25,579 bases of DNA, taken from positions 1 through 25,579 of IMG/VR virus record IMGVR_UViG_3300021368_001496; one strand, given 5' to 3'. The position numbers were made by a program, and so were the translations under genes. This document shows positions 3,285 to 25,515 of the stretch, piece after piece. The stretch is from a virus. Under the pieces are notes generated by a model, which saw only the letters and a program-made list of their open reading frames with translations, was not told the origin of the DNA and did not search any database. How positions within the stretch are numbered: position 1 is the stretch's first letter; every line of letters begins with the position of its first letter.

Positions 3285-3285
3285 A

Positions 3286-5790
3286 ATGTCAGAATTTGAT
3301 TCAACAACTTTAAAAACATCTTTACTTGTAAACAAACAAGTACCAGAGTTTGTTCGTGATGAACACCCTCTCTTCATTTCTTTTTTAGAGGCATATTATG
3401 AGTTTCTTGAAACAGAACAAGGCACTCAAAATAATGATCTTACAAAAATATCAAAAGATTTAAAAAGTGTACAAGATGTCGATGCTTCAATTGATGCTTT
3501 TGAAAATAACTTCTTAAATCAATATGCTAATCTCGTACCAAAAGATTCAGTATCAAACAAAGCATTTTTAATTAAAAATATATTACCTTTGTATCTTGCA
3601 AAAGGTAATCAAAAGTCTTTTGAATTTTTATTTCGTTTATTTTACGGGCAAGAAGCTGATATATCGTTTCCTAAAGATCAAATATTAAGAGCCTCTGATG
3701 GTGAATATTCTCTTGAAACTGTAATTCGTATTAGAGATCAAATTGTAAGTTTTTATACTGGTGATGGCACCACAAAAGAATTTAAACTTGCACAAGCCGT
3801 AACACCAAATGAAATAACTTTAGTTGTTGATGGCACAACTTTAACTTCTGGTTTTTTCACAAGAAAAGAAGAGAAAAAATTATTCTTTTTATCAGCACCC
3901 AGTAACAATGCCGATATAAGGGTAATATACAATAGTTTTGATCAGAGTTTATTAAATAACAGAAAGATAACGGGTGCAACATCAGGCGCTACTGCCACAG
4001 TTGAAGCAGCTGCACCTAGATTATTAGAATTTCCTAGATCGGTTGAATTATTTGTAAATAGATTGACTTTAGTTGGTACATTCGTTCAAGCAGAACAAAT
4101 ACTTACCAATATTGTTGACTCAGATAATGAGCTAATTAATATATCTTGTAACACTACATCTTCAGTTGAAACATTAACATTACTAAGTGGTGGTAATGAC
4201 TATAATGTTGGTGACCCAGTTGTGATCACTTCAGGTGTTTTCGATGAAGCTGCAACAGCTGTGGTTGGTTCTGTAAGAACTGGTTTTACTGATAATGTAA
4301 CAGTACATTTCGGTGGTTCTGGATTTGAAGTTGGTGGTGTTGTAAGAGGTGGTAATACTGAGGCTGGTTTTGTTACATTATCAGTTACCGGTGTAAATAA
4401 TGATGGCGTCAACCAACAAAATAGTTTTACTGCTTTAGATACAACAATAGATTCTATTGATACTTCTACCACTTTAGATAGTAGTGATTATGGGTTTATA
4501 ACAAATATAATACCGACTGGTGAAAATTTATCTACTAGAATCGTAGACACTTTATCAAGTAATACTATATCGGGTATAGGCTCAATTACAACTGTTTCTG
4601 TGTTATCAACAAGTGCTTTTTCAAATGCAATTAGTTTTGATGCAGATGGAGCTAAACTTGTTACTGACACTTCTGTTACGGATATAAAAACATTTGGCAC
4701 ATTAGGCAGAATAAATGTTGCCTCAGGCGGTACAGGTTATGAAGTTGGTGATGAATTAGTCTTTACTGGTGGTGATGGGTTTGGAGCTGCAGCTGCTGTT
4801 AAAACTGTTGGTTCGTCCGGTGAAATAGAACGAGTTGAATTTCAACCACCAAGAATTGCAGGTACGGTTAGTATATCTTCAAATCTAAATCATATATCGG
4901 GTTCCGGCACCACATTCACAACTGACTTAGCTATAAATGACCAAATTATTGTAAATAATGAATCGAGATTTGTAAATACAATTATAAGTGATACTGAAAT
5001 AAATGTCAACTCGAATTTCACACAAACAACAACTGGTAAAGCAATCGGTGTTTACAATAGAAACATGATTGGTGGCCAAGGTTTCTTACCAAATGTTTTT
5101 CCTACAATCACAGTTACTTCATCTGGTGGATCAAGTGCAAATTTAGAAGTTACTGCCTTACTTGGTGATCAAGAGCAAATATCTGCGACATCAAATGGTA
5201 TTGTTGGTCAAATAGAAACTATCTCATTGACAAATCCTGGGCTAGGATTTAGAGTCGTGCCTAGAGTGGATTTAACTGGGTCTGGTGATGGCACAGCAAC
5301 AGCAAATGCTACAATACAACGAGCACTAAGAACATTCCCTGGAAGATGGACTTCTTCAAAAGGTATTATCTCAGCTGCTGAAAGAAAAATACAAGGTGCA
5401 AATTATTATCAAGATTTTGTATATGTTACAAATGTTCCAGTTGAGTTTCAAAAGTATAAATCTATATTGAAAGGTTTATTACATCCAGCTGGATATAAAA
5501 ATTATGCAGAGTTTAATATAACAAAATTAGTAGACACAAGTATTACAGGATCTCACACTCTAAGTAATACTGTATCAGGAACAGTAAATGTGGCTGCTGG
5601 TGGCACAACGGTCGAAGGCACCAATACTAAGTTTTTACTCGCAAATACAAATACTATTAGTATAGGTTCTCAAATATCAGTTAATAATGAAATTAGAGAA
5701 ATTGCTAGTTTTGTTACAAATACAAGCCTTACGGTCACGGCTGCATTTACTTCTGAAGCTAATGACAAATCCATCATAATTATCGCATAA
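3286..5790 (+). CDS. Baseplate wedge-position structural protein (possible gp7 equivalent)
   Basis: 834 residues between gp6 and gp8, the place of gp7 (1032 aa) in T4. I see no direct sequence likeness to T4 gp7, so the assignment is by position. The N-terminus has VPEFVRDEHPLFISFLEAYY (residues 19-38) and LIKNILPLYLAKGNQKSFEF, patterns I associate with marine T4-like structural proteins. The middle carries several GxGY..GD repeats (around residues 296, 476 and 646). Around residues 683-747 is a conserved-looking block with GANYYQDFVYV and LKGLLHPAGYKNYAEF. A module of about 65 residues (GTxF...VNNExR...V) occurs twice, at 526-592 and 764-834. It starts one base after the gp6 stop, so coupled translation is likely. 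Confidence 0.75.
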   Translation: MSEFDSTTLKTSLLVNKQVPEFVRDEHPLFISFLEAYYEFLETEQGTQNNDLTKISKDLKSVQDVDASIDAFENNFLNQYANLVPKDSVSNKAFLIKNILPLYLAKGNQKSFEFLFRLFYGQEADISFPKDQILRASDGEYSLETVIRIRDQIVSFYTGDGTTKEFKLAQAVTPNEITLVVDGTTLTSGFFTRKEEKKLFFLSAPSNNADIRVIYNSFDQSLLNNRKITGATSGATATVEAAAPRLLEFPRSVELFVNRLTLVGTFVQAEQILTNIVDSDNELINISCNTTSSVETLTLLSGGNDYNVGDPVVITSGVFDEAATAVVGSVRTGFTDNVTVHFGGSGFEVGGVVRGGNTEAGFVTLSVTGVNNDGVNQQNSFTALDTTIDSIDTSTTLDSSDYGFITNIIPTGENLSTRIVDTLSSNTISGIGSITTVSVLSTSAFSNAISFDADGAKLVTDTSVTDIKTFGTLGRINVASGGTGYEVGDELVFTGGDGFGAAAAVKTVGSSGEIERVEFQPPRIAGTVSISSNLNHISGSGTTFTTDLAINDQIIVNNESRFVNTIISDTEINVNSNFTQTTTGKAIGVYNRNMIGGQGFLPNVFPTITVTSSGGSSANLEVTALLGDQEQISATSNGIVGQIETISLTNPGLGFRVVPRVDLTGSGDGTATANATIQRALRTFPGRWTSSKGIISAAERKIQGANYYQDFVYVTNVPVEFQKYKSILKGLLHPAGYKNYAEFNITKLVDTSITGSHTLSNTVSGTVNVAAGGTTVEGTNTKFLLANTNTISIGSQISVNNEIREIASFVTNTSLTVTAAFTSEANDKSIIIIA

Positions 5791-5793
5791 ATA
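5786..5793 (+). promoter_or_regulatory. Possible late promoter octamer CATAAATA before gp8
   Basis: One mismatch from the T4 late consensus, and it contains the TAA stop of the preceding gene. The expected start point would lie at about 5799, just before the gp8 ATG at 5801, so a transcript from here would have almost no leader. This makes it a weaker candidate than those at 19357 and 24997. Confidence 0.3.
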
Positions 5794-5800
5794 GGAAATT

Positions 5801-7414
5801 ATGGCAACAAAATACACTTCAAAATTACAATCACTTAAAAGTGCTGAACAATATGTTTCTGGATTTGCGGGAGATGACCCAGAAATACAGTATATTTTTA
5901 TAGGTAACAGTATTCCATACTCTGATGAGGCTAGTCCGCCAGATATCACAGAATCGGTTGATGAAAATGTGAGTGTGGATAATAGTATTATAGCTGCAAA
6001 AAGAGTGTTAGCGAGTGATGTTAATTTAGTTATACCAAGGGTAGACTGGACATCTAGTACAAAATATCGACAATTCGATGATAAAGTTTCAGTAGATAAT
6101 TCGATTTCTGGTGTAGATTCTCAAAATTTAAAACCGATGTATGTGATTACAACTGATAGAAATGTGTATAAATGTCTTTCTAATAATTCAAATTCAGCTG
6201 GTCAATCCCCAGATTCAACGGTTGAACCTACTGGAGACTATACAACGTCAAATGGTGTAATTTCTACTGCTGATGGGTATATTTGGAAATATATGTATCA
6301 AGTCAGGTCCGGTAATAAATTTTTAAGTAGCTCTCACATACCCGTGCCTACTAGAAATGTTAGCTCATCAGAAACGGATACTATTTTTAATTTAGATCCA
6401 ACTGGTGTTGTAGAAGGTGAACTCACAACAATTGTTGTAACAGATGGTGGCACAGGTTATAGGAATTTTTCAAATGTAACAGTAGATGCCTTTGTAGAGG
6501 GTCAAACGGTAATAGGCTTATCAAGCACTATTATAGATAATACAAGTTTAACAGCTGCAGGCATAGCAGCTGCAAATATGTCAGTAAGTGGTACTGGTAT
6601 AGCTTCAAATGCACTCATATCAAGTGTAGATTCTACAAACGCAACAATCACTTTAACTCAAGCTGCAACGGCAGATGGTGGTGATACCGGTAATAATTTA
6701 ACGATTACAACAAGAGTTTATGTGGATGGTGATGGTTCTGATGCGGCTGCAAATGTAACTTTATCGGATGGGGTTATAACTAAAGTAACTGTTGACACAA
6801 TTGGTACGGGTTACGAAAAAGCAAATGCCCTCATATTTGGAACAGGTTCTGGTGTGATAACTAGATCTGTTTTAGCGCCTAAGTTTGGTCACGCATATAA
6901 TATCGGTAAAGATTTGGCTGCGAATAGTGTTATGGTCACTACAAAAATAGGCGATATCGATTCAACCGAAAATGGTGTTGTGCCTTTAGGTATAGATTTT
7001 AGACAAATAGGTTTATTGAGGAACCCATATAAATATGGTGAATCTTCAGCCGTAAATAATTCTACAGCTAATCAGGTTATATCTCAAGTTCATACTGTAA
7101 CAATATCAACTGGAGCTGTTTATCAGGAAGATGAATTTGTTTACCAGGGGTCTTCTAATACTGTATTTTCTGCCTCGGCTAGAGTTCATAGGGTTGTTTC
7201 TTCATCTTTAATTGAATTGATTGATGTTGTTGGAACACTTTTAGTCGCTAGAGAATTAGTGGGTGATACATCTGGTGCATCAAGAACAGTTACAAGTATT
7301 ACAAATCCAGAATTTGAACCAAGATCATCTGATATTTTATACGTTGAAAATATAACACCGGTAACAAGAGTAGATGGACAAGCAGAAGATATAAAGCTTG
7401 TTTTACAATTTTAA
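5801..7414 (+). CDS. 8: Baseplate wedge subunit gp8
   Basis: 537 residues, longer than T4 gp8 (334). Shared features run along its length: EIQYIFIGNSIPYSDEASPP near the N-terminus matches the T4 segment with IFITFGRSEPWS; NLVIPRVDW matches DAVIPRRDW; VYKCLSN matches VYRCLD; DGYIWKYMYQV matches DGYVWEYLFEI. Near the end DFRQIGLLRNP matches FRQISIITNP, and the terminus RSSDILYVENITPV matches RHSGEMIYMENRPP, closing in a phenylalanine. Known role: gp8 dimers connect gp7, gp10 and gp6 in each wedge. The extra length is mostly an insert around residues 205-365 with two GxGY repeats, plus a QEDEFVYQGSSN module around residues 440-500. A weak Shine-Dalgarno sequence (AGGAAAT) precedes the ATG. Confidence 0.92.
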   Translation: MATKYTSKLQSLKSAEQYVSGFAGDDPEIQYIFIGNSIPYSDEASPPDITESVDENVSVDNSIIAAKRVLASDVNLVIPRVDWTSSTKYRQFDDKVSVDNSISGVDSQNLKPMYVITTDRNVYKCLSNNSNSAGQSPDSTVEPTGDYTTSNGVISTADGYIWKYMYQVRSGNKFLSSSHIPVPTRNVSSSETDTIFNLDPTGVVEGELTTIVVTDGGTGYRNFSNVTVDAFVEGQTVIGLSSTIIDNTSLTAAGIAAANMSVSGTGIASNALISSVDSTNATITLTQAATADGGDTGNNLTITTRVYVDGDGSDAAANVTLSDGVITKVTVDTIGTGYEKANALIFGTGSGVITRSVLAPKFGHAYNIGKDLAANSVMVTTKIGDIDSTENGVVPLGIDFRQIGLLRNPYKYGESSAVNNSTANQVISQVHTVTISTGAVYQEDEFVYQGSSNTVFSASARVHRVVSSSLIELIDVVGTLLVARELVGDTSGASRTVTSITNPEFEPRSSDILYVENITPVTRVDGQAEDIKLVLQF

Positions 7415-7423
7415 GGGTAAAGA

Positions 7424-10400
7424 ATGGCACTCAATTTTAATACAACACCGTACTATGATGATTTCGATGAAGATAAAAATTTTCATAGAATACTGTTTAG
7501 ACCAGGTAGAGCAGTTCAAGCTCGTGAATTAACACAATCACAAACACAACTACAAGACCAAGTTAAAAAATTTGGCGACCATATATTCAAGGATGGTTCA
7601 AGAGTTACTGGTGCTTCAATTTTTTCAATCGGTGAAGGTAATATAAAAGTTGTATCACAAAATCGAGCAAATTTAGCGGCCAATTCTTCAACATCAGTTA
7701 GTCATATCAAATTACAATCTACATTTGAAGGCACTACAATTAATGTGTCTAATTTTATAGGCAAATATATTACGACAAATACAGCGATATCAGCAGAAGC
7801 AAATGTAAAAAATATTTACTTTGTACATCACGCTGACGCTGCAGTTGATAGTGATCCAGATACTCTATATGTTTCTTATATAAGAACTGAAGGTAATAGA
7901 CTCGATACAGCTGCGGTTGCATCAAAAGATGTAGCTAATGATGCTAATTTACAAATATTCTCAACATCTGATGTAAGTTCATCAAATTTATTAGGTTCAG
8001 TTACAGCGGCTTCGGCAGATGCTTTTGGTAAAGCAAAACTTCTTGGTGTTACTGAAGGTGTTTTTTATACAAATGGTATTTTTGTTAAAAACAGTCAACA
8101 AATAATTGCTGTTGACAAATATAATGCTAATGCGAATGTATCTATTGGTTTTGAATTAAATGAGAGTATTGTATCAGCAACATCTGATACCTCATTATTA
8201 GATCCAGCTTTAGATTCATCAAACTATTTGGCACCAGGCGGTGATAGATATAAAATTTCACTTAATCTATCCAAAAAACAATTAGACTCAGCTAATCTTT
8301 CATTACCTAGCTTAACAACAAACAAGTATATAGAATTAGTCAGATATAAAAATGGTTTATTAGTTAAAGACACCTCTGATACAAGATACTCTGATTTGGG
8401 TAGAACATTAGCTAGAAGAACTTATGATGAGTCTGGAGACTACGTTGTTGATGGGTTAAAAACGAGATTAGAAACAGAAGGTAATACATCTATGTTTCTA
8501 CATATCTCACCAGGAAAAGCATATGTTAAAGGGTATGAGGTAAATAAACTCCTATCAACTCAACTAGACATAAACAGAGCAAGAGACACAGAAACGATTA
8601 CAGGCCACGATGTATCGACATTCTATGGTAATCACATAAATGTAACTGATGCAAATACTGCTGCGTTTAATTCAAATGTCTCTGAGAGAGTTGAACTTTA
8701 TTCTTCAAATACCGTTACTGATGGTACGACAAAGATAGCGGAGGCATATGTAAGAAATCAACAATATGTGAGTGGTAGTGGTTCATCTACTATTAATCGT
8801 CTATATTTGTTTGATGTAAAAACCGTTGCAAATACTGGTGGTGTAAGTTTACCTTTATCTTTAACTAAAACTATAGTTGGCCAAACTGATTCTGGGAGTT
8901 GTAATGTAGATGCAACATCAACAGTAACTTTTGAAAGAGTAGGTGAAATTGTAAATAATACACCACATTTAACTTTAACAGCTGGTGATGCAGCTGGAGT
9001 GAAAGTTGGTGATGAGGTTTTTGGACATAATGTATCATCCTTTTCTGCAGCAGATGCTTCACCAGGACTTCATGGAACCACAGAAGCAGAACGTAGAATA
9101 TATGTTACAGATGTGCAAGGTAGTAATCTAAGATTAAGTGCTGTAAGTCTGAAAGGAGAAGAACAAGGCACTTCTACTTATCAGTTTAGGAGAGCTGTTT
9201 TATCAGACCCAACATATGAAGCGAGTGTATTTGAATCCTCTTATGGCTCAGTCGCTTCATTAAACCAGGCAAATTACGACACAAAAAGAATATTTAAATC
9301 TGTAACATTCACTAACGGTCAAGCTACAATTACTACAAATGATGGAACAGAAAGATTTAAAGAGGCCGCAACTGCATTATTAAAACAAACATTTTATTCT
9401 GTTATTGTCAGAACAGGAACATTATCTGGCACAGATAGAGGGGCTCCAGTTGATTTATCTGCCGCTGGTGTAACATTTACTACCACTTCAACACCGGGTA
9501 GTGCTGATAATCTAACCATAGATTTAAACGATGGTAGTTTTAGTGGAACTTGCGACATTCTTACAACGATTGATATAACTGGTGCAGGTAGAAGAACTAA
9601 GTTAGCAGTGAGTGGTGTTAAATTTTTTGATGAAATAGGTAACACATCAACTTCAATTGTTAGATCATTAGGTGTAACTGACCTAATCAATGTTACTGCA
9701 ATTTATATATCAAATGACACAAGCAGTGCAGCTGGTAGTTCTAATGTAAATGTTAAAGATTCATTTATATTAGACACAGGACAAAAAGATTCATTCTACG
9801 ATCACGCAACAATTAAGTTGAGAGAAGGTAATAAAGGTTCACAGGCTACTAATGAAAATGCTGTTAATACAGGTAATGTTCGTATTGAATACAATCGATT
9901 TACTCATACTGGTATTGGACACTTTGATGCGAACTCATATCCTGTATATGAATCCATACCTCAACACACTAGAAAAGATGGTGTGATATTAGAACTTACA
10001 AACTCAATAGATTTTCGACCTACTCGTACAGATGATGAAACTTCAAATGTTTATAGCAACACATCTATGACATTTAATAGAAATCAAATTGTTGATAGTA
10101 GAGAAGCTGAAGTGGATACAGAGCTCACATATTATCTTGGTAGAGTCGATAAGGTAGTATTACAACCTAGTGGTGATTTTAGAGTAATAGAAGGCGCAAG
10201 TGCTTTAAACAACCCGCCTACACCAGCTGATGATAACGAGGCGATGACAATTATGAAAATGTCATTAGACCCTTACACATATGGGACTAGTAATGTTAAA
10301 ATAGACCTCGTTAGAAACAGAAGATATACAATGAGAGATATTGGAGGTATTGAAAACCGTTTGAATAGAATGGAGTATTATACCTCTCTCAGTTTACTTG

Positions 10401-13164: not shown

Positions 13165-13905
13165 ATGGCCACCATAAATCAATTATCAGCTGCTAACACA
13201 TATCAAGATTGGCTAAGTGCAACTGAAACACTCATATCATTAAATAATGATTTTGGTGAAGGTGCTAACGGCACTTTTTTTGTAAACACTAGTTTGATTT
13301 TAGATGGTGATTTGTCAGTTGGTGGTAATATGGCTTTAGAGTCAGGAGGTTTTGATAATTTAACAACAAATGGTAATTTAGTTTTAGAATTAACTGGGAC
13401 TGGAAATTATCTCACTTCAGGAAATGTTGCTGGAGCTGCAGCTGCTAGATGGTCAATTGTAGGTGATGGGTCTAATTATAATTTTGATGCTTATTCAGAA
13501 AATAATCCAACTTTGAATTTAACAGCTGGAGAAACATATGCTTTTGACTTACAAGGTTTAAGTGGTTCACATCCATTTGTAATTCGCACAACTAATGCAA
13601 GTGCTACAGTAGGTGATAGTAGTACCTATTATAATGTTGGTCTATCCCATGTAGAACCAACAACTGATAAAAAAGGTTTAGTTATATCTCATAGTGCGGA
13701 TGCACAAGGAAAAACAAATGGAATTTTGTACTGGAAAGTACCAGCTAATACCATTAACCAGACATATTACTACCAATGCACAGCTCATGCTAGTGCTATG
13801 GTGGGAACAATACATATAGAAAACACAATAGAAGCTTTATTTTTAGCTGCAAATAATACACTTTCATCGGATGCCGTTGGACTCACGGCTGCATTGGTAG
13901 GATAA
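13165..13905 (+). CDS. Tail protein with cupredoxin-like domain, copy 1
   Basis: 246 residues. The N-terminus MATINQLSAANTYQDWLSAT and a following DGDLSVGGN motif resemble tail-fibre attachment regions of marine phages. The C-terminal part, about residues 112-220, looks like a cupredoxin (plastocyanin) domain: NPTLNLTAGETYAFDLQ, then SGSHPFVIR with His136, then ILYWKVPANT, and finally YYYQCTAHASAMVGTIHI. His136, Cys205, His208 and Met212 fall where plastocyanin has its four copper ligands, although Met is one residue closer to His than in plastocyanin. Cys205 is the only cysteine in the protein. Copper binding is inference; the fold may be used only structurally. It is followed after 4 nt by a paralogue with the same signature. 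No signal peptide is visible, so it is expected to be a particle component. Confidence 0.75.
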   Translation: MATINQLSAANTYQDWLSATETLISLNNDFGEGANGTFFVNTSLILDGDLSVGGNMALESGGFDNLTTNGNLVLELTGTGNYLTSGNVAGAAAARWSIVGDGSNYNFDAYSENNPTLNLTAGETYAFDLQGLSGSHPFVIRTTNASATVGDSSTYYNVGLSHVEPTTDKKGLVISHSADAQGKTNGILYWKVPANTINQTYYYQCTAHASAMVGTIHIENTIEALFLAANNTLSSDAVGLTAALVG

Positions 13906-13909
13906 TTAA

Positions 13910-14644
13910 ATGGCCACTATTAATCAATTAACAACTTCAAATACATTTTTACAATGGCTCGCCTCTACACAGTCTTTAATTACACATCATAATAATTTTA
14001 AAGAAGGTGCTAGTGGTACATTTCTTGCAAATACTAGTTTAGAAGTTGATGGTGATTTAACTGTTACAGGTAATGTAAGTTTAGACATTGCTGGTTTTGA
14101 CAATTTGTCAATGAATGGTAATTTAATATTAGCACAAACTGATACAGCTGCGTTCTTTACAGATGCAAATACGTCTGGGTCAGTTGCAGCTAGATGGTCT
14201 ATTGAAGGAGCAAGTGGCGTAGGTTATTCGTTTGACTCTTATCACGGTGCTAACCCATCTATAAAAGTTAAACCTGGTCAGACATATGCTTTTGATTTAC
14301 AAAAATTGGCCGGTGCCCACCCATTTGTAGTGAGAACAGAGAGTACAGTTGGCACAGTCTCAGATACCAGCACATATTACAATGTAGGGTTAACTCATGT
14401 TGAAAAATCTGGAGGGAATAATTTAGTTATTTCTAAAGGCGCTGATGCACAAGGTAAAAATAATGGTATTCTATACTGGAAAGTGCCAGCAAATACAGTA
14501 GGTTCGACTTTGTATTATCAATGTACCGCTCACCCAAGTTCTATGGTGGGTAACTTAGAAGTAGAAAACACAGTAAAAGCAGCTTTCGATACAGCTAATA
14601 CTGTAATAGACGAGTCCATAGCTGTTGCAATTGCTTTGGGATAA
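13910..14644 (+). CDS. Tail protein with cupredoxin-like domain, copy 2
   Basis: 244 residues, a paralogue of the preceding gene along its whole length; by eye about half the residues are identical. The start MATINQLTTSNTFLQWLAST and the GFDNLSMNGNL segment near residue 62 mirror copy 1. The cupredoxin-like part has NPSIKVKPGQTYAFDLQ, LAGAHPFVVR with His137, ILYWKVPANT and LYYQCTAHPSSMVGNLEV with Cys205, His208 and Met212. Again there is only one cysteine, at the putative ligand position. The two copies differ mostly between the ligand segments and at the C-terminus, as expected if they have specialised. They may form mixed oligomers or decorate different sites; this is not visible from sequence. 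Confidence 0.75.
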   Translation: MATINQLTTSNTFLQWLASTQSLITHHNNFKEGASGTFLANTSLEVDGDLTVTGNVSLDIAGFDNLSMNGNLILAQTDTAAFFTDANTSGSVAARWSIEGASGVGYSFDSYHGANPSIKVKPGQTYAFDLQKLAGAHPFVVRTESTVGTVSDTSTYYNVGLTHVEKSGGNNLVISKGADAQGKNNGILYWKVPANTVGSTLYYQCTAHPSSMVGNLEVENTVKAAFDTANTVIDESIAVAIALG

Positions 14645-15005: not shown

Positions 15006-15554
15006 ATGTCGTACATAGGCAGAGGACCAGACACCGAGTTATTTCAAAAAAGTTTTCAAAGATTTAGTGGGGATAACTCTGAACAAAGTTTTACATTAGA
15101 AAGAACGGTTGTAAATGCAACTGATCTTGATGTTTGGGTAGCTGATGTACACCAAGACCCCTTTGATGACTATACTGTAACACCAGCAAATAATACAATC
15201 AATTTTACAGTTGCACCGGCTATTGGAACAAATAATATACTGGTTGGTTTAAAAGACAAAGTTGCTTATGCTGTTGTTGAAGCTGATGACCTGAGTGTCT
15301 CAACAAGAAAATTACAAACAGATGCTGTTACAACAATAAAGATAACTGATAGTGCAGTAACAACGGCTAAGATAAATGATGATGCCGTTACACCAGCTAA
15401 ACTAGAAAACACAACTGTTACAGCTGGTGATTATGGAGACGAGAGTAACATACCAATTATAAGAGTTGATGAACAGGGTCGACTCACACAGGCTGCCAAT
15501 GTTTCAGTAAATATACCCGAAGCAGGAATTAACCCATTATTATTTACAGGATAA
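15006..15554 (+). CDS. Tail fibre-like protein with T7-fibre-type N-terminus, copy A
   Basis: 182 residues. Residues about 20-80 (FSGDNSEQSFTLERTV, then DVWVADVHQDPFDDYTV and NTINFTVAPAIGTNNILVG) match the short domain seen at the N-terminus of T7-type tail fibres, used for attachment to the particle. Residues about 95-135 hold three short repeats of the form AVTTxKIxD/AVTPAKLEN, typical of trimeric fibre shafts. Then comes the widespread fibre segment TAGDYGDESNIPIIRVDEQG. The C-terminus is short, so this is likely a connector or small fibre rather than a full receptor-binding protein. A GGAG sequence 10 bases before the ATG supports the start. A paralogue lies at 25030-25515. Confidence 0.72.
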   Translation: MSYIGRGPDTELFQKSFQRFSGDNSEQSFTLERTVVNATDLDVWVADVHQDPFDDYTVTPANNTINFTVAPAIGTNNILVGLKDKVAYAVVEADDLSVSTRKLQTDAVTTIKITDSAVTTAKINDDAVTPAKLENTTVTAGDYGDESNIPIIRVDEQGRLTQAANVSVNIPEAGINPLLFTG

Positions 15555-15929: not shown

Positions 15930-17030
15930 ATGTCGGAATATTCAGTTACAATCGAAAAACTGAGACCTACTGGTTATGAATTCCCCGTTGGTAATATAAC
16001 TAAAGATGTTGGTTCACAGCCAAATTCATACTTTGATAGCTTAGGTGGAACAAAAACATTTAGCGGTGATTATGTAATCCACACATTTACTTCTTCAGGT
16101 ACTTTTAAAGACTATTCTGGTTCAACGGGCCATGATTGTGAGTTCTTCATTATTGCAGGCGGTGGCGGTGGCGGTGCAGGCTTTGGTGGTGGCGGTGGCG
16201 CAGGCGGTTTTAGATATGGTACTGATCTTCCTGTATCTGTAAATGATGAATATACTGTGGTAATTGGAAGTGGAGGCCAAGGTTCTTTAACACCACAGTC
16301 TCCAAACTCTTCTGGCAATGATTCTGAAATATCTAACATAAATTTAGCTCCACATACTCAAGCTAATTCTGCTGGACATATTTTTGCCGATGGTGGTGGT
16401 CTAGGTGGTAATGGCAGCGGTGGTGGTGGAAGAAGACATGGATATCCTGGAGGATGTGGTGGTGGTGGAGGTGGTGCTTGGGATGCTCAAGGGCCGGCCG
16501 CTCCACAAGGTATAACTGATATCTATGCACCGGCTAGTGCTCAACCGGCTCATTTTGAAGGTGGAGCTGGAGAAACTATTACTCACTCTGTAGGTAACCC
16601 AGGCACTCAAGGTTATCCTGGCGGGTATGGAAAAGGAAGACCCAATACAATACCGGGACTTCAGCCATATTCTCCATATGGCGGTGGTGGCGGAGGAGGT
16701 ATAGGTGGTAGAGGAACCGAACAAGGCCCATATGGGACATCACCTCCAAGCCAAGGTGGGTATGGTGGTGCTGGTCTTGAATATTCAATTTCAGGATCTC
16801 CAGTTTTTTATGGAGGTGGAGGTGCTGGTCATGGGAACAGCGGTAGTGGTGTTGCGCCTCCAGCTGGCGGTGGTGATGCTTCTAAAGGACGCAACGGTTT
16901 AGATAATAGAGGTGGTGGTGGAGGTGGTAATGCAGGTTCAAATCCAGGAAATGAAGGCGGAAACGGTGGTTCGGGTATAGTAATTATAAGATATGCTAAA
17001 ACAGGGCTTACAGGCTACGAGGTTAATTAA
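15930..17030 (+). CDS. Glycine-rich tail fibre/adhesin 1
   Basis: 366 residues. After a short N-terminus with RPTGYEFPVGN (residues 12-22) and a VIHTFTSSGTF segment near residue 50, the protein opens into long glycine runs (IIAGGGGGGAGFGGGGGAGG around residues 76-95). These alternate with strands such as YTVVIGSGGQGS and close in GGSGIVIIRY. This is the framework of the phage glycine-rich domain family. In the gp38 adhesin of phage S16, glycine-rich motifs form a packed polyglycine type II lattice whose loops bind the receptor; a similar fold here is inference. The gene is the first of three consecutive homologues and overlaps the next by one base. The glycine codon runs make the local DNA unusually G-rich. 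Confidence 0.75.
   Translation: MSEYSVTIEKLRPTGYEFPVGNITKDVGSQPNSYFDSLGGTKTFSGDYVIHTFTSSGTFKDYSGSTGHDCEFFIIAGGGGGGAGFGGGGGAGGFRYGTDLPVSVNDEYTVVIGSGGQGSLTPQSPNSSGNDSEISNINLAPHTQANSAGHIFADGGGLGGNGSGGGGRRHGYPGGCGGGGGGAWDAQGPAAPQGITDIYAPASAQPAHFEGGAGETITHSVGNPGTQGYPGGYGKGRPNTIPGLQPYSPYGGGGGGGIGGRGTEQGPYGTSPPSQGGYGGAGLEYSISGSPVFYGGGGAGHGNSGSGVAPPAGGGDASKGRNGLDNRGGGGGGNAGSNPGNEGGNGGSGIVIIRYAKTGLTGYEVN
16158..16207 (+). repeat. Low-complexity GGCGGT-type glycine codon tract
   Basis: A tract of about 50 bases built from GGC/GGT/GCA codons, with GGTGGCGGT units repeated in frame. It encodes the first polyglycine run of glycine-rich adhesin 1. Repeats of three- and six-base units can gain or lose glycines without a frameshift. 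Confidence 0.7.
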
Positions 17031-18193
17031 TGGCTGTTACAAGATTATCAGATTTAAATAGAGATGATATAGAAGATAATGGTGCTTCTACAAAAGGCTC
17101 ATTTCGTGTAAGACCTTCAGGTTACAGGTACCCCATTGGTTTAAACTTAACACCAAATACTAATGATACATATAATGTATTTGCAACCGCAACTGGTGGC
17201 ACGCAAACAACAACCGGTTCTGGCGCTTCAGAAGAAGCTATACACACATTTACTTCATCAGGTTCATTTGAGGTGTCTGAAGCACCAACTTATATGTCTG
17301 TACAAATCTTAGCCGTAGGTGGCGGAGGCGGCGGTGGCGGTGGTGCAGGAGGCGGCGGTGGTGGAGGCGGTCTTGTTTATATGAATAGTTATAGACTTAT
17401 GAATACCTCTTATACAATTACTGTAGGAACTGGAGGCAATGGTTTGTATGGCCCACAATCTTCTGGACCAGGTGGTTATTCAAATGTAACTTATACAGGC
17501 GCAAATGTACCAATATCAGGAAATGTTTCAGCAAGAAGAGGTGGTGCCGGTTCTTCTGATGGAGGTGCAGACTCTTTTAATCAAGGAGGACTACAAACAG
17601 GCACAATAGGTAGTCAAGGTGGTGGGTGTGCAAGATTTTCAAAACAAGAGGAATTTTATGGGCCAACAAATGGTTCGATTCAAGGGGGTACTCCTGGATC
17701 TGTAAGCCCGAATGGTTTTTATAATTTTGGTCATTCTGGTGGTAAAGGTCCTGGATCTAAATCAGATTCTACGACAAACCCTGGATCACCAGACAAATAT
17801 GCTGGCGGAGGTGGAGGTGGTGCAGGTGCAAATGGCACACCTTCTTTATCTTTATCAGGCGATGCCGGGAATGGCGGTGCGGGTTTAGCATATTCGATTT
17901 CAGGTTCATCTATAACTTATGCTGGCGGAGGTGGAGGAGGAAAAAATCCAACTTCAAATAATAACCCTAACTGGACTGGAACAGGAGGTCCTGGAGGAGG
18001 TGGTAATGCAGGCCCTACATATCCAAGTATAGGTTCTCAAGGTACATCTGGCCTAGGAGGTGGAGGTGGTGGTGCAAGTGGTTCCCCACCAGCTGGCGCC
18101 CCTAGCACAAATTACGGTGGTAATGGTGGTGATGGTGTTGTAATCATAAGATACAATTCATTTCAAGCAAACGACTCATTCGATGTAAACTAA
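17030..18193 (+). CDS. Glycine-rich tail fibre/adhesin 2
   Basis: 387 residues, start overlapping the previous stop (TAATG). It repeats the plan of its neighbour: RPSGYRYPIGL at residues 28-38, AIHTFTSSGSFEV near residue 70, VGGGGGGGGGAGGGGGGGG around residues 96-114, YTITVGTGGNG, several Gly/Pro/Ser-rich blocks, GNGGAGLAYSISGSSITYAG, and a closing GDGVVIIRY. AYSISGSSITYAGGGGG is almost the same as EYSISGSPVFYGGGGAG in adhesin 1, so the two share a specific C-terminal module as well as the glycine frame. Likely role: receptor-contacting tip or fibre decoration; no enzymatic motif is visible. It ends two bases before the third copy. Confidence 0.73.
   Translation: MAVTRLSDLNRDDIEDNGASTKGSFRVRPSGYRYPIGLNLTPNTNDTYNVFATATGGTQTTTGSGASEEAIHTFTSSGSFEVSEAPTYMSVQILAVGGGGGGGGGAGGGGGGGGLVYMNSYRLMNTSYTITVGTGGNGLYGPQSSGPGGYSNVTYTGANVPISGNVSARRGGAGSSDGGADSFNQGGLQTGTIGSQGGGCARFSKQEEFYGPTNGSIQGGTPGSVSPNGFYNFGHSGGKGPGSKSDSTTNPGSPDKYAGGGGGGAGANGTPSLSLSGDAGNGGAGLAYSISGSSITYAGGGGGGKNPTSNNNPNWTGTGGPGGGGNAGPTYPSIGSQGTSGLGGGGGGASGSPPAGAPSTNYGGNGGDGVVIIRYNSFQANDSFDVN
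17318..17371 (+). repeat. Low-complexity GGCGGA/GGCGGT glycine codon tract
   Basis: A second in-frame tract of glycine codons, of about the same length and at the same protein position as that in adhesin 1. It encodes the longest glycine run in the window. Confidence 0.7.
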
Positions 18194-18194
18194 T

Positions 18195-19346
18195 ATGGCA
18201 AAAGGATCATTACTTAAAGCAAAAGGTGTAAGACCAGTAGGTTATAGATTTCCTGTTGGTAATCTTACGACAAAAGAAGCAGCTGATTTTGTAGCAAACC
18301 CAGACAGTATGATTACAACAACTAATGCTACAAAAACAGATTCAACTGATCACGTTATATATTCATGGACTACTTCTGGCACATTTGAACAAACAGGCTC
18401 TCGTAATCTAACAAGTGATATGTTAATTGTTGCGGGCGGTGGTGCAGGTCATTCAAATGATCCTTCTGGTGGAGGCATGGGTGGCGGTGGTGCCGGAGGA
18501 CTACTTTATTATTCTGATTTACCCGGACTAACAGGCCCTCCCGGACCTGCTTCAGCAAATTCAAAAACTCCTAATGGTCCAACAGTATCAATTGCCCCCA
18601 CAGTTGAATATACTATAACAGTAGGTGCTGGTGGTGCGGCCTACTACCCTGCCGGTGAACCTGCAAGCCCTCCTTTTCCAGCTGATGTATTAGGTCTGGT
18701 AGGTGGTGCTAGTTCATTTAGTAATACTTCACCAGATATACCTACCTCAAATCAGTTAGATTTAACTTCAACTGGAGGTGGTACTATGTGGCTTACAAGC
18801 TCTTTAAAAAATGGTGGGTCGGGTGGTGGCACTTACGGCGGTCCGCCAGTTCCAGCTGGGACAGGTATTGCTGGTCAAGGAAATCCAGGTGCTATATCTT
18901 CTATGCCAGATTTTACGGGTGGTGGAGGTGGTGGTGCTGGAAGTGAAGGCACTACAATGGACGACACACAGCCGAGGTCTGGAAAAGATGGTGGTTCAGC
19001 TCCAACAACTCCCACACATCCCGCAAAGGGTGTGCTTAGATATGCTAGCGGTGGTGATGGCTTAGATTTTGATATATCAGGAACTAGGAGAACTTATGCA
19101 GCTGGCGGTGGAGGTTCTGGTAGAGGTGTTGCGGGACACGGTGGTTCGGATGATTTAGGTGGCCGTGGATCTGGAAGCTTCCCAGGCAGTCCAGGAATAT
19201 ACCCTCAAATGCCATCACAAGCTGGTGGTAATGGAACAGTAAGTAGGGGTTCAGGTGGGGGTGGTGGAAAACCAGGTGGTAACGGATCTGGTGGTGTTGT
19301 AATTATGAAGATCAGTAAAAATTCACCTTGGCTATTTAGTGTTTAA
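18195..19346 (+). CDS. Glycine-rich tail fibre/adhesin 3
   Basis: 383 residues, third member of the series. It keeps RPVGYRFPVGN (residues 13-23), VIYSWTTSGTFEQ near residue 56, a MLIVAGGGAGHS strand entering glycine blocks, YTITVGAGGAAYYPAG, DFDISGTRRTYAAGGGGSG and GSGGVVIMKI near the end. It is the most diverged copy: the glycine runs are shorter, a small collagen-like patch (GLTGPPGPAS) appears near residue 115, and the C-terminus ends in a hydrophobic SPWLFSV rather than the polar VN of the other two. It may therefore face a different partner or receptor. It is followed by the first clear promoter-bearing gap of the fibre region. Confidence 0.72.
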   Translation: MAKGSLLKAKGVRPVGYRFPVGNLTTKEAADFVANPDSMITTTNATKTDSTDHVIYSWTTSGTFEQTGSRNLTSDMLIVAGGGAGHSNDPSGGGMGGGGAGGLLYYSDLPGLTGPPGPASANSKTPNGPTVSIAPTVEYTITVGAGGAAYYPAGEPASPPFPADVLGLVGGASSFSNTSPDIPTSNQLDLTSTGGGTMWLTSSLKNGGSGGGTYGGPPVPAGTGIAGQGNPGAISSMPDFTGGGGGGAGSEGTTMDDTQPRSGKDGGSAPTTPTHPAKGVLRYASGGDGLDFDISGTRRTYAAGGGGSGRGVAGHGGSDDLGGRGSGSFPGSPGIYPQMPSQAGGNGTVSRGSGGGGGKPGGNGSGGVVIMKISKNSPWLFSV

Positions 19347-19860: not shown

Positions 19861-22800
19861 ATGGATTTAATAACACAGGCGAGCCAACTTGCAGCTGCTG
19901 GTGCATCTGGAACAACTGAAGAAGCAACTGATGATAATTTTAATCAAACTGTGTTGCTTTTGCATGGTGATGGTTCCGAAGGTCAAGGCACTTCAACAAG
20001 TCTAGGTGACCCAAACTACAAAGCATTTAGAGATAACTCTACATCAGCTCATGCCATTGCTGTAGAAGCTGATTCTTATGGTACTGACTTTAGCCCATAT
20101 TATTATGCTGATGGTTATTGGAGTAATTACTTTGATGGTGGTGACGATAAAATTACCATACCATACTCTCCTGACCACCAACTAGGAACTGAGCCTTTTA
20201 CCCTTGAGTTTTGGTTATATCTAAAAGCCACGGGGACTAATGGTTTTATCGGAAATTATAATGGTTGGTATTTTCAAATTTGGGTTAATGAACTGGAACT
20301 TGCACAAGGTGCTAGCGCTGCAATAGAAAGGGCTTGGTCACCTAATGTAGGCCAATGGTATCATATAGCTGTAACCAGAGACAACTCTAGTGTAGGTAGA
20401 ATTTTTGTAGATGGTACACAATTAGGCGCTGATCAAGCCAATATGACAACTGACTTTGTAACAGGGTCAAATGCTCTTGAAATTGGAAACTGCGGCCCGC
20501 AACTCGGTAGATATTTTCAAGGTGGTTATATTTCTAACCTTAGAATAATTAAAGGTAGAGGTTTATATACTTCAAATTTTACAAGACCATCTGCTCCTTT
20601 TACAGACCCAACAACATCAGGTGAATTATCAGTATATTTTGATGGGACTGGAGATGAATTAATTATTCCAGATAGCTCAGATTTTACTTTTGGTAGTAAT
20701 AATTTTTCCATAGGGGTTTGGGTTTATAGGTTAGATTCATCATCTTCCACAGAAAGAGCAATCGGAAATACAGGAGGGACGAGTTATACATCTTGGCTTC
20801 TCACAACTAAAAAGTTTTGGGCTACATCAACTTCTAATAGTTGGAATATACAAGTTAATTTTTCTCAAGATGTTCCTGTTAAAAGGTGGGTTTATGTTCA
20901 AGTAAATAGAGTTGGTAATGTTTACACCGCATATCACGATGGAGTTTCTGTAGGAACAGTTACGGTGTCGGGAAGTTTATATGATAATAGTTCTGATTTT
21001 GAAATAGGAAAAAGGCAGGGTGCATCTTCCATGTATGGCTATATGTCTAATTTTATTATGACAAATAATGGTAATTTAGCCAGCACAGACGTACCTACAT
21101 CACCTTCTACCGCAGTTACTAACACAAAACTTTTAACTTTGCAATCTAAAAATTTTACTGATGAATCAGATAGTAGTCATAGTATAACAGTAAACGGTAA
21201 TACTAGATTATCAGAGTTTGGTCCATTTGGTGATGGGTATTGGAGTAATGACTTTGATGGCACATCTGACTCACTTACAATAACGTCTACAGCTGCATTA
21301 CAACTACCTGATGAATTTACAATTGAATTTTTTATGAAACTTGACACGGTAGTTGTTGATGCTCAACACCCAAGTCCGATTACTTTTCCTAGTAATGGGT
21401 CTCATATAACACAAGTTTATGTGCAAGCGTCTAATGGTTATGTTGGTTTATATTACAACGGCGATATTGTAAAATCATCAAATGGTTCAATCGTAGCTAA
21501 TAAGTGGTATCATGTCGCTGTAGGTAGAGATTCTTCAGACCAAATAGCTTTATGGCTTGATGGTGTAAGAGTTGCAACAGCTACAAACGGATTCTCTGTT
21601 GGTAACTCTTCGGGTACTTTTAGGGTGGGGTCTTACAGCGGGACTGGCGGTGATGTAAATGGAAAAATTTCTAATTTAAGAATTGTAAAAGGTAGTGATG
21701 TGTATGGATATTCTAACGCAACAATTACAGTACCAACATCACCACTTACGAAAATAAGTGGCACTTCATTACTTACTTGTCAATCAAACAGGTTTATAGA
21801 TAATTCAGACTCAGGATATTCTTTGACTGTAAATGGTAATACTTCTATAGACGAACACATACCATTTGAATATCTACAAAGACAAACAAAACTAATTACT
21901 TGTCAAGGCCATAGATTTAAGGATGTTATACCTTTTAGACATCATAGTATGACTACTACCAATGTTGTAAAAGCATCCACTTACATACCATTTACAGCTA
22001 CAAAGGTTGATAATGTAGGTTCTGGTCATTTTGATGGCTCTGGTGATTTTGTAAGCGTTGCAGACAGTACAGATTTTACTCTTGGGAATTCCGATTTTAC
22101 TGTAGAGTGTTGGGTATATTTTAAGACTGTTTCAGGTACACAATACGTTTACGGACAATCACATAGCTCTGCTGCAAGTGCAACAGCAATTCAAATGTAT
22201 TCATCTGGTACTACATTATATGGCTGGACTGGTTTTGGAAGTGTTAGTGGGACTATAAATGCAAATGAATGGATCCACGTTGCTTTTGTTCGACAATCTA
22301 CCAATTTACGTTTGTATTTAAATGGTGAACAAACTGGTACTGCAGCTGCTGGCACAAATTCGGTTACAGATTCTTCAGGTATTTTTGCTTTAGGTAGAGT
22401 AGGGGCATATGCCTCAAATTACTTTAATGGTTATATATCAGATTTTAATTTAATAAAAGGCACTTGTAAATACGAAAACGGTGTCGCTTTCACCCCTCCC
22501 ACTTCTACTATAACAGCTCATACTAATACCAAATTACTTACTTGTCAATATTCAGGTGCAGTTCGTAACATGGGATTTTTAGATGATTCTAATTCAAATT
22601 TTGAAATTATCAGATCAGGAGACGTATCACCTGGAACATTTACTCCATTTAGTTTAGAAGATGGTTATTGGAGTTGGTACTTTGATGGAAATCACCCAGT
22701 AGAAATTGCAGATTCAGGTAGTGGTTTAGATTTACCTGGTGACTTCACAGTTGAGTTTTGGGCTTATGAACCAAAAATAGCAACAACAAACGGGTATACA

Positions 22801-24522
22801 AATTTATTTTTCACCGTTGATACTTTAGATAGGTTTCAATTTGGTAATAATGGAACTAATGTTTTCTTTTATAATGGAGGATTGGTAATCAGTACAACGC
22901 CATCCACATTAAATCAATGGAATCATTATGCTCTTGTTAGAGAGGGATCTAGTACAAATAATTTGTCGTGTTACAGAAACGGAACAAGATTAGCACAAGC
23001 TACAAATAACACCAATTATACAGCAAATAGTTTAATGTTGGGTGGACAAGATAGAGGTAGTACCACAGGATATCATGGTTGTTTTATGTACATGAGTAAT
23101 TTTAGAATAGTCAAAGGAACAGCTGTATATTCTGGATCAAGCTACACGGTTCCAACTGAGCCTTTAACTGCGATTTCTGGCACATCTTTATTAGCTTGTC
23201 AGAGTAACAGGTATGTTGATAACGGTCCAAACAGTATGACAATCACAACAGCAAGTAACGCTCCAAATAGAGTGAAGGCATTTTCACCTTTTGCACCATC
23301 TAGGTCTTATACTAAAGATGCAGTAGGTGGTAGTGCTCTCTTTGATAGTAGTGGTGATGGGCTAAAAGTAGTTGATTCAGATGGCCCTCTTGGTACAAGT
23401 GATTTTGAAGTTGAGCTTTGGTATTATCCTACAACTATAAGTGGTTCAAAATATATATTTAACACTAGTTATAATAATGGCAGTTTTGGTCCTATATTGA
23501 TTTATATGGCTAATAACGATTTAACCGTTAGACTTTACAGTAGTAGTAGTGGAAGTAGTTGGAATGTTTTTGGGTATAAAACTTTAGGAACAGTAAAACT
23601 ACATCAATGGAATCACATATATTTAAGTCGTGTAAGCAATGCAATGTATGCTTTTGTCGATGGGACTGCATCTTCTCAGAATGGTGATGCTTGGAGTACA
23701 AATTACACTTTAACAAATGCTCCGGTTTACATAGGAACTTATGATACTTCTGGTTCTCTTCCCGCAACTGGCCATATTTCAAATGTACAATTTAATTTAG
23801 GTTCAGGCTCAACAACGAAGACAATACCTACTGCACCGAATACCCCTAATTCATACACTTATGTTCAAACTAATTTTACTAATGCAGGTATCATTGACCA
23901 CACAATGAAACATAACCTAGAGACACAAGGTAATGTAAGAGTAAGAACAGATGTGAAAAAATACGGCACGGGAAGTATTTATTTTGATGGTGCAAGTGAT
24001 GAATTAATACAAAAAGCAAGTCATCTAACTATGAATTTTGGAACAGGACAATTCACAATTGAGTTTTGGGTTTTAATCCCTAGTGGTGCTTCAACAGGAA
24101 ATTATCAAATGTTCATGTCAACTGAAGGAAGCTCTTGGAGTGGTGGTGCAATATCCTGGTACACACACTACACAGGAGGATCTCACTTATTCCCAATGTT
24201 TGTAGCTGATTATAGTGGTGGTTCTCCTATGTTATCCGCCGGTTCTACTAATTTAGCTGATGGTGCTTGGCATCATCACGCTGTAGTTCGTGGGGCATCT
24301 GGTGCGTGTGCATATTTTCTTGATGGTACGAGAAAGAGTACCGTAACATTTACTGGTAATGTAGGAAGTGCTACAAGAGATGCTTATTTTGGTAGTATGG
24401 GCACCGGTTCAAGAAATGCAGAAATGTATTTGGATGATTTGAGAGTAACTATGGGTATTGCTCGCTATGACCCAACACAAACATCGGTTACGATACCAAC
24501 AGAATCTTTTGCAAATAGATAG
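19861..24522 (+). CDS. Giant multi-LamG (ConA-like) tail fibre/adhesin
   Basis: 1553 residues. After an N-terminal QTVLLLHGDGSEGQG and a polar segment, the protein is a chain of seven LamG/concanavalin-A-like jelly-roll domains. Each starts with a YFDGxxDxxxI motif, continues with an FTxEFWxY strand, then a W.H.A..R turn followed by a strand ending in DG, and closes in a G..SN.RI.KG-type strand. Approximate starts are residues 86, 255, 460, 719, 936, 1156 and 1370. Between several domains lie linkers with SLLTCQSNRF-type motifs (Cys640, Cys681, Cys895, Cys1113; Leu427 in the first). LamG folds commonly bind glycans, so a role in cell-surface recognition is inferred. The next gene is chaperone-like, as expected for a fibre. 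Between domains 3 and 4 two linkers follow each other without a domain between them. No enzymatic motif was recognised. Confidence 0.82.
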   Translation: MDLITQASQLAAAGASGTTEEATDDNFNQTVLLLHGDGSEGQGTSTSLGDPNYKAFRDNSTSAHAIAVEADSYGTDFSPYYYADGYWSNYFDGGDDKITIPYSPDHQLGTEPFTLEFWLYLKATGTNGFIGNYNGWYFQIWVNELELAQGASAAIERAWSPNVGQWYHIAVTRDNSSVGRIFVDGTQLGADQANMTTDFVTGSNALEIGNCGPQLGRYFQGGYISNLRIIKGRGLYTSNFTRPSAPFTDPTTSGELSVYFDGTGDELIIPDSSDFTFGSNNFSIGVWVYRLDSSSSTERAIGNTGGTSYTSWLLTTKKFWATSTSNSWNIQVNFSQDVPVKRWVYVQVNRVGNVYTAYHDGVSVGTVTVSGSLYDNSSDFEIGKRQGASSMYGYMSNFIMTNNGNLASTDVPTSPSTAVTNTKLLTLQSKNFTDESDSSHSITVNGNTRLSEFGPFGDGYWSNDFDGTSDSLTITSTAALQLPDEFTIEFFMKLDTVVVDAQHPSPITFPSNGSHITQVYVQASNGYVGLYYNGDIVKSSNGSIVANKWYHVAVGRDSSDQIALWLDGVRVATATNGFSVGNSSGTFRVGSYSGTGGDVNGKISNLRIVKGSDVYGYSNATITVPTSPLTKISGTSLLTCQSNRFIDNSDSGYSLTVNGNTSIDEHIPFEYLQRQTKLITCQGHRFKDVIPFRHHSMTTTNVVKASTYIPFTATKVDNVGSGHFDGSGDFVSVADSTDFTLGNSDFTVECWVYFKTVSGTQYVYGQSHSSAASATAIQMYSSGTTLYGWTGFGSVSGTINANEWIHVAFVRQSTNLRLYLNGEQTGTAAAGTNSVTDSSGIFALGRVGAYASNYFNGYISDFNLIKGTCKYENGVAFTPPTSTITAHTNTKLLTCQYSGAVRNMGFLDDSNSNFEIIRSGDVSPGTFTPFSLEDGYWSWYFDGNHPVEIADSGSGLDLPGDFTVEFWAYEPKIATTNGYTNLFFTVDTLDRFQFGNNGTNVFFYNGGLVISTTPSTLNQWNHYALVREGSSTNNLSCYRNGTRLAQATNNTNYTANSLMLGGQDRGSTTGYHGCFMYMSNFRIVKGTAVYSGSSYTVPTEPLTAISGTSLLACQSNRYVDNGPNSMTITTASNAPNRVKAFSPFAPSRSYTKDAVGGSALFDSSGDGLKVVDSDGPLGTSDFEVELWYYPTTISGSKYIFNTSYNNGSFGPILIYMANNDLTVRLYSSSSGSSWNVFGYKTLGTVKLHQWNHIYLSRVSNAMYAFVDGTASSQNGDAWSTNYTLTNAPVYIGTYDTSGSLPATGHISNVQFNLGSGSTTKTIPTAPNTPNSYTYVQTNFTNAGIIDHTMKHNLETQGNVRVRTDVKKYGTGSIYFDGASDELIQKASHLTMNFGTGQFTIEFWVLIPSGASTGNYQMFMSTEGSSWSGGAISWYTHYTGGSHLFPMFVADYSGGSPMLSAGSTNLADGAWHHHAVVRGASGACAYFLDGTRKSTVTFTGNVGSATRDAYFGSMGTGSRNAEMYLDDLRVTMGIARYDPTQTSVTIPTESFANR
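20116..24516 (+). repeat. Seven LamG-like protein domain repeats
   Basis: Diverged coding repeats inside the large fibre gene, approximately 20116-20622, 20623-21120, 21238-21759, 22015-22524, 22666-23178, 23326-23850 and 23968-24516. They are visible as protein motifs (YWSNYFDGG, VYFDGTGDE, YWSNDFDGT, HFDGSGDF, YWSWYFDGN, LFDSSGDG, YFDGASDE) and not as DNA identity, so the duplications are old or were acquired separately. Borders are approximate. Confidence 0.75.
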
Positions 24523-25029: not shown

Positions 25030-25515
25030 GTGTACATAGGAAACACCCCAAGAACTGCTAATTTTCTTATAGATCAATTTAGTGGAGATAATACTGAAGT
25101 CAATTTCACTTTATCTTTAGCACCAGGTTCTCTTATCTCTATTTTAGTTTTTATATCTGGAGTAAGACAATCAATAAATGATTACAGTTTAAATGGTGCT
25201 GTATTGACATTCACTAGTCCACCAGCGACAGGTTCTAATAATATAGAGGTTGTTCATATAGCACATGATGCTGGAACTGTTCCATCAGATTTATCTGTAT
25301 CAACAGCAAAATTACAAGATAGAGCTGTTACTGACACGAAGTTAGCAAATACGGCTGTTACTGCCGGAGACTATGGGGATGAAGGTAATATACCAGTTCT
25401 TAGAGTAGATGCACAAGGTCGAGTTACAAGTGCAGCTAATGTAACAGTAAATATACCAGCTGTATATACAGATGCAAATGCCATACCAACAATACTCATG
25501 CTTGGCGGTATGTGA
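25030..25515 (+). CDS. Tail fibre-like protein with T7-fibre-type N-terminus, copy B
   Basis: 161 residues, paralogue of the gene at 15006-15554. Shared features are the start (YIGNTPRT versus YIGRGPDT), FSGDNTEVNFTL, the ILVFISGVRQSINDYSL segment, DLSVSTAKLQDRAVTDTKL with its short trimeric-fibre repeats, and TAGDYGDEGNIPVLRVDAQG. Copy B has two AVTxxKL repeats where copy A has three, and its C-terminus (NAIPTILMLGGM) differs. Likely a fibre connector or small fibre attached to the particle by its N-terminal domain. It starts at GTG with a good ribosome site and a candidate late promoter. The next gene again matches the partner of copy A. Confidence 0.72.
   Translation: MYIGNTPRTANFLIDQFSGDNTEVNFTLSLAPGSLISILVFISGVRQSINDYSLNGAVLTFTSPPATGSNNIEVVHIAHDAGTVPSDLSVSTAKLQDRAVTDTKLANTAVTAGDYGDEGNIPVLRVDAQGRVTSAANVTVNIPAVYTDANAIPTILMLGGM

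Follow-up and report, generated by a model that had tools for sequence, protein, structure and literature searches.

A predicted cupredoxin-type domain with an intact putative metal site in tandem tail proteins of a marine phage

Two adjacent genes in a 25,579-base stretch of DNA from a virus record (the window; G+C 36.6%) probably encode short tail-fibre-like or adaptor proteins, each with a cupredoxin-type head that carries an intact putative metal site, and this is the best overall explanation of the data. It is very likely that the domain has the cupredoxin fold and that its metal site is under selection. The computed support comes from the predicted fold, the register of the ligands, their conservation across marine virion and tail proteins, and their loss only as a whole. 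An earlier, sequence-only reading of the window had proposed a plastocyanin-like copper site in both proteins; it is partly supported, being largely right on the fold and the ligand set, with copper itself only putative.

The two tandem genes and their surroundings

The window covers a T4-like baseplate and tail cluster, in which sub-threshold matches to gp5 C-terminal and PAAR-like pieces are followed by genes for gp25, gp6 and a DUF4815 tail protein, and then by the two genes of interest. For gp6 and the DUF4815 protein, the nearest counterparts occur in marine myophages that infect Methylophilales and SAR11 (Melnitz, HTVC008M and Mosig), with 32–41% identity. The two genes lie on the plus strand at 13165–13905 (246 aa) and 13910–14644 (244 aa), as had been claimed, and their products, proteins 1 and 2, are tandem paralogues with 57% identity. 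Their placement after the DUF4815 gene is conserved in close relatives that match over the full length, which occur as two copies in three loci (L044, L045 and L046) and as one copy in two others (L003 and L004). Promoter motifs near the two genes were not found above chance.

Judged by inspection and AF2 modelling, both proteins have the same architecture: a common N-terminal region beginning with a conserved MATINQL, a short fibre-shaft-like stretch of GDLxVxGN beta-repeats, a sandwich head, and a C-terminal helix predicted at low confidence. The head, or cupredoxin-like domain, spans about residues 90–220 of protein 1 (13432–13824) and residues 87–220 of protein 2 (14168–14569), the latter matching the domain profile with an E-value of 5.5e-37 and with its ligands conserved.

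On the 3' side of the two genes are small tail proteins, three consecutive glycine-rich proteins (15930–17030, 17030–18193 and 18195–19346; Pfam Gly_rich_2), which we take to resemble the glycine-rich adhesin tips of T4-like fibres, and a 1,553-aa protein (19861–24522) with seven laminin-G/concanavalin-like repeats that is probably a host-binding fibre. Two tail-fibre-like ORFs, at 15006–15554 and 25030–25515, resemble each other in a C-terminal segment (VTAGDYGDExNIPxxRVDxQGRxTxAANVxVNIP), which suggests that an attachment part was duplicated.

Predicted fold and kinship of the domain

When full-length protein 1 was modelled by AF2 from 16 sequences, residues 92–220 were modelled well and the rest poorly, and a template-free model of the domain alone, built from 32 sequences, reached a pLDDT of 93.5 and a pTM of 0.88. 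These models contain no metal, and the AF2 training set is rich in cupredoxin structures. The predicted domain is a Greek-key beta-sandwich of the kind that defines the cupredoxin superfamily, and its best Foldseek matches in the PDB are all cupredoxins: rusticyanin (6e-6) and AcoP (2e-5), followed by laccases, azurin and the nitrite reductase NirK, with probabilities of about 1.00, although TM-scores over the whole domain are moderate (0.5–0.56) for azurin and AcoP. A profile of 32 phage relatives (alignment A6; the structure and the residue counts used A7, which differs from it by one residue in row 2) was compared with the PDB by sequence, and nearly all of the 60 matches listed were cupredoxins, led by amicyanin (1.5e-5), plastocyanin (6e-5) and rusticyanin (6e-5). 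In the alignments to plastocyanin and rusticyanin, the His of the phage HPF motif falls on the first ligand, and the downstream loop on the Cys, His and Met ligands. The structural and the sequence-profile routes are largely independent, and they agree; the fold check proposed with the sequence-only reading thus returned a cupredoxin-type beta-sandwich by prediction, Foldseek and PDB profile alike, and not some other fold.

More direct comparisons reached less far. When six cupredoxin sequences (one of them incomplete, and amicyanin checked against the PDB) were compared with the phage profile by hhalign, the ligand loop only was aligned, at probabilities of 55–78%, whereas the PDB profile search spans far more of the domain. 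The suggested search against cupredoxin families gave a mixed outcome with Pfam Copper-bind (PF00127; gathering cut-off 21.2 bits): a phage relative in locus L106 exceeds the cut-off at 24.2 bits, but protein 1 scores 14–15.9 bits, below it, and protein 2 gave no match to this family. Sub-threshold similarity to another family, PF25489 (At5g54830-like domain), recurred in 12 of the 32 members of the A6/A7 alignment, with a best E-value of 1.9e-4.

Among characterized cupredoxins, amicyanin (PDB 1aac family, TIGR02657) is the best match by sequence profile, and its CTxH-x2-M loop is that of most phage relatives, while the window proteins have three residues between His and Met. Amicyanin is a secreted electron carrier with Asn after the first His, whereas the window proteins have a long insertion between the first His and the Cys. 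Rusticyanin and AcoP, the top structural matches, are periplasmic proteins of iron oxidation with a longer Cys-His-Met loop and without a link to phage tails. In most blue copper proteins the residue that follows the first His is Asn, which helps to lock the site; rusticyanin has Ser at this place, and the phage domain likewise departs from Asn, having Pro. Plastocyanin, including that encoded by cyanophage petE, has the same fold class and the same order of His, Cys, His and Met, but its Cys-x2-His-x4-Met loop is found neither in the window proteins (His-x3-Met) nor in their relatives (mostly x2). The proposed likeness to plastocyanin holds for the alignment of the loop and the first His, while the domain is closer to amicyanin and rusticyanin and has Pro in place of Asn. 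Similarly, the His-Met spacing had been described as one residue shorter, which is correct relative to plastocyanin and incomplete otherwise, since amicyanin and most phage relatives have x2. The petE gene of cyanophages is a separate metabolic gene and does not specify a virion protein (PMC3037559).

Closer kin are found in phage structural proteins. The cyanophage gp9-like 'baseplate wedge tail fiber connector' (PHROG 677) carries a homologous C-terminal domain with intact ligands, but the window proteins match only the last third of the profile (positions 281–411 of 412), the N-terminal halves differ, and homology to T4 gp9 or PHROG 677 over the full length is absent. The gene next to that for the gp9-like protein specifies T4-GC 399, a structural protein of cyanophages with about 1,400 residues, which has a divergent copy of the domain with the ligands H, C, H and M, and also a ligand-free repeat that has no Cys-His-Met loop at all. 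When the GC399 domain alone was compared with the PDB by sequence, no cupredoxin was found, and its kinship rests on a profile match to the phage domain with a probability of 93.5%. Structural matches also include a Fadolivirus 'Blue type 1 copper protein' and giant-virus entries named 'Beta-sandwich protein'; cupredoxin-like proteins have therefore already been annotated in other viruses, but these are mostly small proteins of viruses of eukaryotes and are not tail proteins.

Conservation of the ligand residues and spread among phages

The motif order HPF...VPANT...YYQCTAH-x3-M-VG is seen in both proteins, and the putative ligands stand where they had been placed. In protein 1 they are His136 (codon at 13570–13572), Cys205 (13777–13779), His208 (13786–13788) and Met212 (13798–13800), the last a putative axial ligand; in protein 2 they are His137 (14318–14320) and the Cys205–Met212 loop (CTAHPSSM; 14522–14545), which includes His208. 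Cys205 is, as had been noted, the sole Cys of each protein. Read from the residues, the order His...Cys-x(n)-His-x(n)-Met is that expected of a type 1 copper protein. When protein 1 was shuffled 200,000 times at constant composition, the string C-x2-H-x2-4-M turned up in 152 of the shuffles, so that it is only mildly unusual, and it was chosen post hoc; the real evidence is its conservation.

Across 32 aligned domains, with identities to the window domain down to 23%, invariance is confined to five columns: His, Tyr, Cys, His and Met. Some of these domains came from a locus scan with patterns containing the Cys and the second His, which biases the loci towards those two ligands, whereas neither the first His nor the Met ever formed part of the selection. 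The count was repeated without this bias, on loci and domains retrieved without the ligand loop, and all four ligands are present in 66 of the 69 unique domains whose loop was aligned; two have none, and the remaining one is a split alignment, which stops short of the first His. It had been proposed that homologues freely losing Cys205 and His208 would speak against a metal site, and this is not what is seen. The two ligand-free domains are tandem repeats within one 1,746-aa protein (L015/L016, ORF 2223–7460), a natural ligand-free control. Substitution of a single ligand was not seen in any copy of the 69-domain set. A site that is kept or lost whole is expected of a metal site under selection and not of a constraint on the fold only.

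The site departs from the textbook in two ways. The usual Asn (or Ser) of type 1 copper sites after the first His is replaced by Pro in 191 of 193 aligned copies, and the loop of unique domains is C-x2-H-x2-M in 157 and C-x2-H-x3-M in nine, the window proteins belonging to the minority. A cyanophage structural gene of S-PM2 (W09, AJ630128; 50433–50867) gave a weak match, AHIFSLSR...YYYCATQSQDHADEGG, which is possibly a degenerate site.

These observations bear on the idea that the fold was borrowed and that its four residues bind zinc or iron, or serve in packing or thiol chemistry, so that copper would be irrelevant. The azurin site accepts zinc, nickel and iron, as PDB titles record, and the ligand-free copies indicate that the fold can be maintained when the site is absent. 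However, the full His-Cys-His-Met set is retained exactly at low identity and is lost only whole, which points to metal ligation by a soft, copper-like set of ligands, and we regard this explanation as quite unlikely.

Relatives of the domain are widespread among phages. A single-sequence scan of viral contigs gave none, but alignment queries did retrieve them, and the farther relatives have only the C-terminal domain in common. One domain query matched 346 of 50,697 phage records, nearly all of them phages of marine picocyanobacteria, together with the pelagiphage HTVC028P, and a separate query matched a lake actinobacterial phage. The domain recurs in virion and tail proteins of picocyanophages and of some SAR11, methylotroph and lake phages. 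Many marine T4-like phages have it in gp9-like and neighbouring structural proteins, and the earlier remark that nothing in known T4-like tails calls for such a site was too narrow. The sole match in a bacterial genome (L047, a 'Rhodopirellula' MAG) was considered as a sign of acquisition from a host and rejected: its gene order (large structural protein, gp9-like, GC399-like, further ORF) is that of cyanophages, so that it is likely a phage contig.

Whole-genome profile searches gave three or four matches each in S-SM1, Syn9, P-SSM2 and P-HM2, one ligand-intact copy each in Mosig and Melnitz, and no copy in T4, P-SSP7 or HTVC008M. This distribution touches on a redox role, in which the site would exchange electrons at the cell surface, for example to trigger irreversible adsorption or to sense host activity, as in light-dependent adsorption. 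Electron-transfer proteins have this fold and these ligands, and P-HM2, a phage that fails to adsorb in darkness, has three ligand-intact copies, whereas P-SSP7, a phage that infects in darkness, lacks the domain; yet two phages do not make a correlation. S-PM2, reportedly studied for light-dependent adsorption, is without an intact copy at this search sensitivity, and Mosig and Melnitz infect non-photosynthetic hosts; together, S-PM2 and the phages of heterotrophs make the lead from light-dependent adsorption a weak one. Nor is there a known redox partner, and a redox role appears very unlikely.

Possible roles of the metal site

The alternative preferred here is structural. Both genes would encode short, probably oligomeric, fibre-like or adaptor proteins with a predicted cupredoxin-type beta-sandwich as their C-terminal head, in which His136, Cys205, His208 and Met212 form the site. 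The site would bind a soft metal ion, most likely copper, and would be loaded mainly once the virion has left the copper-poor cytoplasm. The bound metal could then cross-brace the strand of the first His to the Cys-His-Met loop, giving a rigid and stable head that may act as a contact module, either in fibre and baseplate assembly or at the cell surface. Bracing is proposed from the chemistry and by analogy: cupredoxins become more stable with metal, and such a function would suit a domain that is employed in structural connectors. That bracing of a contact module is the main job of the site has about an even chance of being correct.

Metal is not foreign to phage fibres. Iron is held by HxH sites in the tip of T4 gp37, HxH sites are predicted in the fibre of the marine Alteromonas phage R22Y, and a Trojan-horse docking hypothesis has been published for iron in phage tail fibres (PMC11705849). 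By extension, copper (or iron or zinc) bound to the tail could be recognised by, or coordinate to, an outer-membrane receptor of the host, and the domain does sit in fibre and baseplate proteins of mostly marine phages. The gp37 metal is octahedral iron held by histidine pairs of a trimer and not by a cupredoxin domain. Against docking, the gp9-like copy lies on an annotated baseplate–fibre connector and not on a known receptor-binding tip. Cupredoxin sites also bury their metal, with at most one His exposed. Metal-mediated docking is therefore judged unlikely, and structural bracing is retained as the favoured role.

The cupredoxin fold, its ligand set, one blue copper annotation in a giant virus and iron sites in phage fibres were already known. 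What is apparently new is a conserved and seemingly intact site in phage tail proteins, and one that, from its residues, would not be of the textbook type, having Pro after the first His and a His-Met spacing of two or three. A search of mainly open-access journal papers gave no report of a cupredoxin or blue-copper domain in phage tails. With these results, a structural identity can be given to the C-terminal part of the gp9-like connector that is common in cyanophages, and to a neighbouring protein annotated only as 'structural'.

Since the domain is conserved in the tails of many ocean phages, virus particles may carry bound metal. One could go further and speculate, tentatively, that a large share of marine T4-like phages bear several copper-loaded heads per virion on connector and fibre proteins, that these represent a His-Pro class of its own among viral copper sites, without which adsorption or baseplate stability would fail, and that the particles constitute a copper-binding pool in seawater. 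If the site does bind copper, abundant ocean viruses would have a redox-capable metal centre built into the apparatus with which they infect; this would be a novelty among phage tails and would have a bearing on trace-metal cycling.
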